From Alphaproteobacteria bacterium (lineage in GTDB: Bacteria > Pseudomonadota > Alphaproteobacteria > ATCC43930 > CGMCC-115725), in the NCBI GenBank assembly GCA_019240125.1, contig JAFAYW010000124.1, positions 1 through 64,000 on the forward strand: a DNA stretch of 64,000 nucleotides. Direction: 5' to 3'. Below, piece after piece: positions 56,960 through 60,122 of this stretch. The translations under genes and the position numbers were made by a program. Within the stretch, counting starts at the first letter, position 1, and every line of letters begins with the position of its first letter. The notes beneath the pieces are model-generated. The model had not been told where the DNA came from. It did not search any database and worked only from the letters and a program-made list of their open reading frames with translations.

Positions 56960-59098
56960 ATGCCCGCCGACGACTCAACTCCACACGCTAAGATGCCGGG
57001 TCGGCGCTCGGATCAGAAACCGGATCTCCGCGACAAAACAGGACCATCTTCGGGACAAACCCCCCGCCCCATACTGCCATCTCTGGCCGCGCCTGCGCTT
57101 TGTCTCGCATTGGCGCTAATTTGCGGCGCATGGCCGAACGGTTTCTTTGAGACCTCACGAAACTGGCTGTTCGATGTCGATCAGCGGCTCGGGCCGGCCG
57201 AACGTGGCCAATCCCATGTCACTTTGATCAACATCGACGCCGATTCTATCCAACGGATCGGTCAATGGCCCTGGCCGCGCGATAAACTGGCACAGCTGGT
57301 CACCGCAGCGAAAGCGGCACGAGTCATCGGCATCGATTTATTGCTGAGTGAGCCCGACCGATTGTCGCCGGAGAACTGGGTGCGCGACCATCCAGGGATC
57401 GCGCCTGAGATCAGGAATGCGCTGCTCGGCCTGCCCTCGACCGATGCGATTCTGGCGCAGGGTATACGCGACTCACCGGTCGTGATGGCGGCGGTGGCCG
57501 TCCCTAAACCGACGCCCCAAAGCACTGCCTCGGCCATTGCGCCGCCGATCATCGAGGTCGGTCGCGACCCCCGACCGGAGATGCCGAATTACGGTGGCGT
57601 TGTTCGGCCCCTGTCGGCATTTGCGGCCGCGGCGCATGGTCTTGGCCTTGTGACCCTGCCCCCTGAACCCGATGGCGTGATGCGCCGCATCCCTGCTCTG
57701 ATGGCTGTCGGAAACGAGCTCGTCCCCAGCTTTGTTCTCGAGGTGATGCGGCAATGGACCGGCGCGGATAGCATCGTCGCGCGTGGCGATGCCGCCGGGC
57801 TGGCGGAAGTCACGGTGGGCGACTTTGTTCTGCGCACCGACCAGCAGGGCCGGGTTTGGCCGCGCTACGCCGCCGAACCCCCTGTTCAGGCTGTTTCGGC
57901 CGCGACGGTACTTGAGGGGCGGGTTCCCGCATCTGTCTTCCGCGACCGGATTGTCCTGATCGGCGTCAGCGCTCCGGGCCTAGGGGACGTGATCGTCTCT
58001 CCACTGCGACGTCCCGAACAAGGCGTTGCCGTTCACGCGCAGCTGATCGAGAGCCTGCTGGCGGGCGATTTCTTGTGGCGGCCGCCGCTCGCGCTTGGCG
58101 GCGAATTGATCCTTGCGCTCATTTTGGGCGTTGCCGCGATGACGTCGCTGGGCCGCGTTCGACCCGGCGTGTACGCCGGTGCCTTCGCCGCGACGCTGGT
58201 ATTGTTGATCCTCGGCGCCTGGTTTTCCTTTTCACGAGCTGGCCTCCTGCTGGATTGGACATTCCCGGTATCGGCCTTGCTGGTGACCAGCATCATTGCG
58301 TTAACGACGCGGGTCACGCGCGAGATCCGGATACGGCGTCACCGCGAGCAAGATCTGGAAACCGCGCTGCTGCTCGCCGAGGCGGCGGACCGCACGAAGA
58401 CGGAATTCCTCGCCAATGTCAGCCACGAACTCCGCACACCCCTGTCAGCGATTATCGGCTTTTCCGATGTTATGCGTACCGGCGTGCTGGGGCAGCTACC
58501 GAGCCGATACGTCGGCTACGTGACGGATATTCACTCGAGTGGCGTGCATCTCCTCGGGATCATCGAGGAGGTTCTTGATCTGTCGGTCATCGATCTTGGT
58601 GGGGCGCGGGCGGGGCACGATCCGGTGGACGTCGAAGCATACCTCCACGAATCGGCTCGGGTTGCGGCGCCGCGGGCCGTCGCACGCAACGTCAGGATCG
58701 TCTGCGATATTGCGGTGGCACTGCCAATTCTGAGCGTCAGCGCACGCATGTTCAAACAGATGATCGCCAATCTGTTGTCCAATGCCGTAAAGTATTCACC
58801 GGAAGGTGGCGAAATTACCCTCGGCGCCTTCGTTTCGGACAGATGGCTCGTTGTGTCAGTGCGGGATCGAGGCCGCGGCATGGCGAAGGCGGATCTGCCA
58901 AAGGCTTTGACGCCGTTCGGGCGGCTTCAATCCGCCCGCTTAGCCCAGGAACCGGGTATCGGCCTGGGCCTATCTCTCACCAAGTCCATGTTGGAGCTGC
59001 ACGGCGGCATGCTGAAAATCGAGAGCGAGATCGATCAAGGGACAACAGTCGCGTTATGGTTTCCACCGACGCGCCTCATCGAGGAGTCTGGAACATGA
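56960..59098 (+). CDS. CHASE2-domain sensor histidine kinase
   Basis: A 712-residue membrane sensor. After a Ser/Pro-rich cytoplasmic start and one membrane helix (about 36-54) comes an extracytoplasmic CHASE2 domain (about 60-340: FDVDQRLGPAERGQSHVTLINIDADSIQRIGQWPWPRDKLAQLV, and FRDRIVLIGVSAPGLGDVIVSP), then three helices and a kinase core. His489 in SHELRTPL is the phosphoacceptor; N-box NLLSNAVKYSPEGG, G1 VRDRGRGM and G2 GIGLGLSL complete the ATPase. No response regulator is adjacent. Its stop overlaps the next ATG. Confidence 0.93.
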   Translation: MPADDSTPHAKMPGRRSDQKPDLRDKTGPSSGQTPRPILPSLAAPALCLALALICGAWPNGFFETSRNWLFDVDQRLGPAERGQSHVTLINIDADSIQRIGQWPWPRDKLAQLVTAAKAARVIGIDLLLSEPDRLSPENWVRDHPGIAPEIRNALLGLPSTDAILAQGIRDSPVVMAAVAVPKPTPQSTASAIAPPIIEVGRDPRPEMPNYGGVVRPLSAFAAAAHGLGLVTLPPEPDGVMRRIPALMAVGNELVPSFVLEVMRQWTGADSIVARGDAAGLAEVTVGDFVLRTDQQGRVWPRYAAEPPVQAVSAATVLEGRVPASVFRDRIVLIGVSAPGLGDVIVSPLRRPEQGVAVHAQLIESLLAGDFLWRPPLALGGELILALILGVAAMTSLGRVRPGVYAGAFAATLVLLILGAWFSFSRAGLLLDWTFPVSALLVTSIIALTTRVTREIRIRRHREQDLETALLLAEAADRTKTEFLANVSHELRTPLSAIIGFSDVMRTGVLGQLPSRYVGYVTDIHSSGVHLLGIIEEVLDLSVIDLGGARAGHDPVDVEAYLHESARVAAPRAVARNVRIVCDIAVALPILSVSARMFKQMIANLLSNAVKYSPEGGEITLGAFVSDRWLVVSVRDRGRGMAKADLPKALTPFGRLQSARLAQEPGIGLGLSLTKSMLELHGGMLKIESEIDQGTTVALWFPPTRLIEESGT

Positions 59099-59526
59099 GG
59101 TCGGTCCTGATCCTCTTGCTGCTGCTGTTCAGCTTTTCGGCGATGGCCGAAGAACCCATCGTTGGCGCGGTGAAGACCCTGTCCGGCACAGCCAATGTTC
59201 GGCGGAATGGATCGGAGCAGCAGTTGCAATCCGGCATGGCAATCTGCGAACAGGATCTGGTCGAGACCGGGGACAATGGACAGGTCGGCATCACCTTCCG
59301 CGATAATTCCCGCCTCGCTATCGGGCCCAACAGTCGGGTTGCCGTGTCGCACTTTGTCTTTAAGCCGGCGCAGCGGCAGTATGGATTCGTCGTGCAGCTG
59401 TTGCACGGCACACTGGAGTATATTTCCGGGTTGACGGGCAAGCTGTCGCCGAACAGCATCTCGATCGAGACACCGACATCAACCATCGCGGTGCGCGGCA
59501 CTCACCTGCTCACCCGAGCCGAGTAG
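59095..59526 (+). CDS. exported FecR-domain protein
   Basis: A 143-residue protein with a signal peptide (1-18, ending AMA) and a FecR domain (about 25-135): GAVKTLSGTANVRRNGSEQQLQSGM, DLVETGDNGQVGITFRDNSRLAIGPNSRVAV, and a final TPTSTIAVRGTHLL. It overlaps the kinase by four bases (ATGA) and has GAGGAG upstream. FecR domains are found beside CHASE2 sensors in several phyla, suggesting periplasmic interaction with the sensor; inference. Confidence 0.9.
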   Translation: MRSVLILLLLLFSFSAMAEEPIVGAVKTLSGTANVRRNGSEQQLQSGMAICEQDLVETGDNGQVGITFRDNSRLAIGPNSRVAVSHFVFKPAQRQYGFVVQLLHGTLEYISGLTGKLSPNSISIETPTSTIAVRGTHLLTRAE

Positions 59527-59531
59527 ACATC

Positions 59532-60122
59532 ATGCGGTTATGGACGGTTCTGTCGCTCGCATGGCTGTCGTTATTGGCTGGCTGCGTGCTGCCCGCCAAT
59601 GTCGTCGTGGATTTGCCGGATGATGAGGGCAATACGGGCCAAGTCATGGTCTCAAATGCCAGCGGCAATACCGAATTGGCCAAGCCGTTGGCCGCCGTGG
59701 GACTAGAGCAGGGCGTCCCTCCGGGGCAGCCGTTCATCACGGATCAGGTGGCGGTTAAGAAGGTTTTCGCCAAGGTTCTTGAAGCCACGCCGCGTCAGCC
59801 CGTTTGGTTCACCATCAATTTCGACCCGGGGACTATGCTCATCGCCGCCGCGTCAAACGCGGATATGGCGCGCGCGATCGATGCCGCGCGGTCGATGAGT
59901 TATTCGGAAATCACGCTAATCGAGCATTTCGATCCTGGCATGCCCGCTGATCCCAACACTGCGTTAATGATGGCGCGGGCCCAAGGCGTTGCGGGCAGGC
60001 TCGTCAAAGCAGGTATCAGCCCCACCGCGATCGATATCGAGAATTATGGGCCGATCGCTCCAGTCTCAACCCTTCCTGGAGCGCCGCAGCTGAACGTACC
60101 GCTGGAGATCGTCGTTCGGTGA
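59532..60122 (+). CDS. OmpA-like domain lipoprotein
   Basis: A 196-residue lipoprotein: signal peptide with lipobox LLAGC at Cys18. The C-terminal half (about 90-180) resembles an OmpA/peptidoglycan-binding module (VWFTINFDPGTMLI, then ARAQGVAGRLVKAGI), though the usual paired Asp/Arg binding residues are not clear. It is five bases after the FecR gene stop. The three-gene unit (sensor, FecR, lipoprotein) looks like an envelope-monitoring system. Confidence 0.78.
   Translation: MRLWTVLSLAWLSLLAGCVLPANVVVDLPDDEGNTGQVMVSNASGNTELAKPLAAVGLEQGVPPGQPFITDQVAVKKVFAKVLEATPRQPVWFTINFDPGTMLIAAASNADMARAIDAARSMSYSEITLIEHFDPGMPADPNTALMMARAQGVAGRLVKAGISPTAIDIENYGPIAPVSTLPGAPQLNVPLEIVVR

Follow-up and report, generated by a model that had tools for sequence, protein, structure and literature searches.

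The closest described relatives of the locus reported here are units in which a CHASE2 receptor, a type of domain that many bacteria have on kinases, cyclases and phosphatases, is encoded together with a FecR-domain protein. In the BiofilmReg operon of Burkholderia contaminans and its relatives, which takes a two-gene form in Pseudomonas aeruginosa PAO1, the gene for a CHASE2 histidine kinase lies beside that for an exported protein that combines a FecR domain with a wall-binding module; according to the accessible text, FecR is fused there to LysM, and the operon begins with a mostly CreB-type regulator and finishes with a DUF4136 protein (PMC5192318). The same text states that what CHASE2 recognizes was unknown in 2016. 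In Campylobacterota, a CHASE2 adenylate cyclase is likewise clustered with a FecR-domain protein, its partners being a TPR protein and a phosphodiesterase, and no OmpA-like lipoprotein is described in the portion of the report available (PMC9239204). Here, we analyzed a stretch of 64,000 nucleotides (the window, positions 1 to 64,000 of contig JAFAYW010000124.1, assembly GCA_019240125.1) from an alphaproteobacterium, in which the genes of a CHASE2 histidine kinase, a FecR protein and an OmpA-like lipoprotein form one unit. The CHASE2-FecR pairing has already been published; we found no description of a triad with the lipoprotein and differing outputs in the open-access literature searched, as far as its available text extends. 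On balance, we favor the reading that the three genes encode a trans-envelope signaling relay laid out like YfiBNR, whose kinase would act on a shared orphan receiver.

The kinase gene (56960..59098, + strand; ATG at 56960, TGA stop at 59096-59098) encodes 712 amino acids, and its reading frame stays open further upstream of that ATG. As judged from Pfam, hydropathy and kinase boxes, the protein consists of an N-terminal hydrophobic segment, CHASE2, further hydrophobic segments, HisKA and HATPase_c; CHASE2 (172 bits), HisKA (58 bits) and HATPase_c (84 bits) all score above the cut-off, and the H, N and G boxes are all present. The second gene (59095..59526, + strand; ATG at 59095, stop at 59524-59526) encodes a stand-alone FecR-domain protein of 143 amino acids, in which FecR (43.1 bits against a cut-off of 24) is the only Pfam domain above cut-off, with no LysM, and which begins with a hydrophobic, signal-like stretch as read from the sequence pattern. 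The third gene (59532..60122, + strand; ATG at 59532, stop at 60120-60122) encodes a lipoprotein of 196 amino acids with the lipobox pattern LAGC at Cys18, the relatives of which adjoin FecR. The original prediction had bound the three genes into one transcript by a four-base overlap and a five-base gap, and the coordinates agree with it: an ATGA start/stop overlap joins the FecR and kinase genes (59095..59098, + strand), and five bases separate the FecR stop from the lipoprotein start (59527..59531, + strand). A scan between 56600 and 60470 returned no promoter-like site (0.8 in shuffles) and a single terminator-like site, inside the histidine kinase gene (3.4 in shuffles), so that the case for co-transcription comes from how closely the genes are spaced and from their conserved adjacency. 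That a sensor, an exported FecR-like protein and a lipoprotein stand together in one unit, as also proposed originally, is supported by domains, signal patterns and adjacency.

The lipoprotein misses the Pfam OmpA cut-off (19.3 against 27.2 bits). Because a family profile built without the window row covers 172 of its 196 residues with a score of 76 bits, and because its counterpart in Pelagibius passes the Pfam cut-off with 60.8 bits, we classify its domain by sequence as a divergent OmpA domain. In OmpA structures, an Asp/Arg pair of these domains binds the cell wall. The corresponding D134 and R149 are retained in the window lipoprotein, as in 39 of the 40 aligned rows (alignments comprised the window and hand-picked reference sequences, 65 of 95, 39 of 55 and 52 of 66). 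An additional N-terminal region with a conserved Cys-Trp is found in the lipoproteins of eight other loci (L090, L096, L098, L101, L104, L106, L107 and L111).

The original prediction had named the failure of the gene set to recur in related genomes as the result that would speak against the unit; instead, the set recurs in the family, in the class and in other proteobacterial classes. We searched 61 genomes of relatives and surveyed 385 genomes of the class. Seven of the 61 relatives, the window's own genome included, carry the lipoprotein, which was found in 6 of the 29 genomes in the rest of the family and in none of the 24 more distant relatives. A FecR match adjoins it in all six family genomes, a seventh (G020) having a weaker match in a copy with a broken reading frame, and CHASE2 adjoins it in 6 of 7 family loci, the exception being L045. 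OmpA-domain matches as such are widespread in the class (328 of 385 genomes). Near-full-length lipoprotein matches keep close company with FecR, which lies within 1.1 kb in 26 of the 27 among the matches listed; the remaining one, from the genome of the window itself, is a fusion. We also compared the best 80 of 464 CHASE2 loci, where a lipoprotein was counted if it scored no less than 100 bits and lay within 5 kb. Within that distance FecR is present at 44 of the 80 loci (37 of 54 if each flank must span 3 kb or more). The lipoprotein is present at 26, at every one of which there is FecR too; these 26 do not include L140, whose copy is broken, or L138, which has a partial OmpA match and no FecR. 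In view of the 26/26 and 26/27 associations, a chance neighborhood was rejected. Alpha-, Beta- and Gammaproteobacteria have triads, and so does one metagenome-assembled genome (MAG) of Desulfobacterales. Conserved co-occurrence extends to gene order, CHASE2 kinase, FecR and lipoprotein following each other identically in Pelagibius litoralis DSM 21314 (L141) and in three MAGs (L051, L176 and L188), while L046 has the same order with a hybrid kinase and then a gene for a single-domain receiver.

These counts bear on an alternative in which FecR is the sole partner of CHASE2 and the lipoprotein, as a wall anchor or a regulated product carried along, stands outside sensing. FecR is the more frequent neighbor of CHASE2 (44 against 26 of the 80 loci), the OmpA domain of the window lipoprotein is divergent, and the available text on the published CHASE2-FecR units mentions no OmpA lipoprotein (PMC9239204, PMC5192318), all of which would suit this explanation. 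However, the lipoprotein keeps to FecR even in rows without CHASE2 among those compared, it co-varies with both CHASE2 and FecR (see below), and the Burkholderia unit, in the text accessible, fuses FecR to another wall-binding domain, LysM (PMC5192318). We hold this alternative to be rather unlikely, though not negligible.

In order to compare the enzymes behind CHASE2, triads were defined as loci with CHASE2 above 150, FecR above 80 and OmpA at 70 bits or more within 6 kb, which gave 43 loci besides the window; L139 (treated as a duplicate of L092), L140 (likewise of L051), L052 (no lipoprotein) and loci missing any part were left out. The locus profiles were built without the window rows (FecR from 8, OmpA and CHASE2 from 5, PP2C from 4, histidine kinase and receiver from 2 sequences), so that the match of the window is independent, but those for kinase and receiver are narrow. 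Output labels were assigned by sequence pattern, some examples being confirmed by Pfam. Of the 44 triads, 16 have a SpoIIE/PP2C phosphatase behind CHASE2, 11 a SHELRTPL-type ("DivJ-like") kinase, 5 an NtrB-like kinase, 2 a class III cyclase, 1 a hybrid kinase, 1 another part (L102, in which a gene of its own encodes the kinase together with a receiver part) and 8 nothing or a short tail, that is, seven output labels in three gene orders. The three envelope parts are thus combined with several outputs, of which the window kinase is one. All eight output-free triads are from Burkholderiales (Caballeronia, Paraburkholderia and one Burkholderiales MAG; L170:4617-7302, L164, L169, L180, L196, L199, L202 and L211); they keep FecR and the lipoprotein, and the CHASE2 protein of L170, the one short-tail case checked, has no other Pfam domain. 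In the CHASE2 tree, the window groups with L046 and L051 (support 97/88), although the kinase of L046 differs. Pairwise distances of CHASE2, FecR and lipoprotein correlate with each other at 0.87, 0.83 and 0.85 over 42 triads, and none of 1000 permutations reached values as high. In L050 (8473-11925, - strand), the CHASE2-SpoIIE gene is preceded on its own strand by a STAS gene and a gene of the metallo-beta-lactamase fold, an arrangement that hints at an output by partner switching.

Because FecR and the lipoprotein travel together, and because the envelope parts stay while the outputs differ, we propose a relay across the envelope. From the OmpA domain and the lipobox, the lipoprotein would belong to the outer membrane, its OmpA domain facing the cell wall, the exported FecR protein would serve as periplasmic adaptor and the CHASE2 kinase as inner-membrane receptor. 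A change in the state of the wall or of the outer membrane would alter the lipoprotein-FecR pair, which would then bind or release CHASE2 and so switch the cytoplasmic enzyme, as YfiB and YfiR control YfiN. Domain make-up, signal and lipobox patterns, adjacency, co-variation and the variety of outputs are what the sequences give; the outer-membrane location, the physical contacts, the order of the relay, its stimulus and its target are what we infer. A broader version, which we put forward tentatively, is that CHASE2 originally was a receptor for a protein ligand and not for a small molecule, the ligand being FecR held by a partner in the wall or outer membrane, so that kinases, PP2C phosphatases, cyclases or no enzyme at all could stand behind the same gauge. 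As part of that same tentative version, the holder of FecR would vary, being the OmpA lipoprotein here, LysM in Burkholderia and a barrel or TPS exoprotein elsewhere.

The predicted structures bear on a further alternative. The AlphaFold model of kinase residues 41-468, which cover the CHASE2 region, has a mean pLDDT of 94.9. That region had no match in the PDB by sequence at E-values up to 1, and its model had no Foldseek match at an E-value of 0.001 or better; the best VIA Z score was 4.7. A known fold for CHASE2 was therefore set aside, there being no solved relative by sequence or Foldseek, which is no proof of a new fold. The FecR protein was modeled with a mean pLDDT of 91.4 and its best match is a cell-surface anchoring domain, 5ix9 (Z 10.8, 74 residues, 1.9 Å; Foldseek E-value 1.1e-3). 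This match, the very long open frames in which many FecR matches lie and the OmpA-like domain that ends a large TPS exoprotein of the window's own genome would fit FecR and lipoprotein being an independent pair for the envelope or for anchoring adhesins, with the CHASE2 enzyme as a merely frequent neighbor that has another control role. Against it, the pair adjoins CHASE2 in 44 triads, whose outputs differ and whose genes come in three orders, and it is retained in Burkholderiales even beside an output-free CHASE2 protein; we consider this explanation improbable.

Regarding the target, the original prediction that the regulator is not local holds: none of the 96 receiver matches of the genome lies on the 72,384-base contig of the window, and the flanking genes, Kup and cupin upstream and LigD and HAD downstream, are all four unrelated to the operon. 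Candidates for orphan response regulators, also proposed there as worth seeking, occur elsewhere in the genome; several of the 96 matches lie in open frames of less than 160 amino acids, and contig C289 (L213:560-2437) carries a gene for a single-domain receiver followed by a REC-REC-GGDEF gene, a divK-pleD-like pair. With a home-made receiver profile (from 2, then up to 23 sequences) that may miss some, no receiver gene was found near any of 11 SHELRTPL-type triads, window included (stretches of 5.6 to 13 kb), whereas one lies near 5 of 5 NtrB-like triads, although these rows are not independent and the NtrB-like triads form one clade. This difference suggests that a missing regulator is usual for the kinase type of the window and no sign of a damaged operon. 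A truncated two-component operon is unlikely for the same reason, the window and ten triads of its type being alike without a receiver gene.

The kinase target would most likely be a shared orphan receiver. SHELRTPL-type kinases of Caulobacter and Brucella act on DivK, and for this reason we name the pair on C289 as the first candidate, a choice that may well prove wrong. The best NCBIfam matches of the kinase are DivJ (159 bits) and PdhS (157.8 bits), both short of their equivalog cut-offs of 1000 and 2000; it shares just the kinase core with them, as do other kinases of the genome, some of which score as high or higher with the DivJ and PdhS models. We see an even chance that the kinase instead has a dedicated regulator elsewhere, distinct from DivK/PleD, such as another orphan single-domain receiver; the short receiver frames among the 96 matches and the similarly near kinases (see below) would fit this explanation, which departs from the proposed relay in the target only.

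Several observations weigh against the proposed relay. The lipoprotein is present in none of the seven other genomes of the genus (search of the 61 relatives), and 54 of the 80 CHASE2 loci, some with short flanks, gave no lipoprotein match within 5 kb; hence CHASE2 in general does not need it. Conversely, CHASE2 lies within 5 kb in only 12 of the 26 FecR-lipoprotein rows among the matches listed, with one more by profile, some contigs ending near these rows. The window lipoprotein is one of two without the NRR motif, which 38 of the 40 aligned rows have; wall binding, part of the original description as an outer-membrane or wall-binding lipoprotein, is thus uncertain for this copy. Output exchange is real but rare and mostly clade-wise, since the seven labels need just six changes on the CHASE2 tree, the minimum for that number (three for PP2C and two for SHELRTPL-type kinases, two of each forced by well-supported branches). 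The correlated distances show joint inheritance and not contact, as they also follow from common descent. Finally, 11 other kinases of the genome are about as near in the kinase core, which makes the link to DivK read from that core a weak one.

Related units were observed in the same assembly, in which CHASE2 has seven matches, two of them at contig ends. The second row without NRR is the C-terminus of a large TPS exoprotein (L112 and L117, contig C118, from 18431 to about 30240, - strand), with a TPS domain and MBG and YDG repeats, whose C-terminal domain is homologous to the window lipoprotein (108 bits). On contig C110 (L052:4754-9320), a FecR gene and a gene for a ShlB/POTRA outer-membrane transporter lie with a CHASE2-SpoIIE gene in convergent orientation; together they make up another CHASE2-FecR unit, in which a TPS transporter takes the place of the lipoprotein. 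That C118 and C110 belong together is unproven, the assembly being rated 6.53% contaminated.

Taken as a trio with constant envelope parts and differing enzymes, these genes name likely input partners of CHASE2, which could be tested with a few purified proteins, and the sharing of the envelope parts by many proteobacteria suggests a common means of sensing envelope state. Compared with known systems, the FecR protein shares its fold with the periplasmic signaling domain of PupR (6ovk_R; Z 8.1, 84 residues, 2.4 Å); unlike in FecR/PupR cell-surface signaling, the 143-residue protein is a hydrophobic start followed by FecR, with no anti-sigma part before it. Regulation of the iron-citrate or sigma-factor kind, which the name FecR might evoke, was rejected, as neither that part nor, among the four neighbor genes tested, a TonB receptor or sigma factor was present. 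In contrast to BiofilmReg, FecR stands alone in the window, the OmpA-like lipoprotein may fill the wall-binding place, and the unit has no regulator gene. NsrA of S. meliloti is a precedent for an outer-membrane protein feeding CHASE2 cyclases: it acts upstream of the inner-membrane enzymes CyaK and CyaD1/D2, which are named CHASE2 in the available text of PMC13001267, but it is described as a beta-barrel receptor and not a lipoprotein, and the output is a cyclase (PMC7529298, PMC13001267). Closest in layout would be YfiBNR of P. aeruginosa, in which, according to the accessible text, an outer-membrane OmpA-type lipoprotein, a small periplasmic protein and an inner-membrane receptor enzyme are combined (PMC4655355, PMC4887326). 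YfiB chains match our lipoprotein profile, whereas the adaptor is of the YfiR type and the receptor a diguanylate cyclase where the window has FecR and a CHASE2 histidine kinase, so that the likeness, an analogy, is one of layout and not of descent beyond the OmpA domain.

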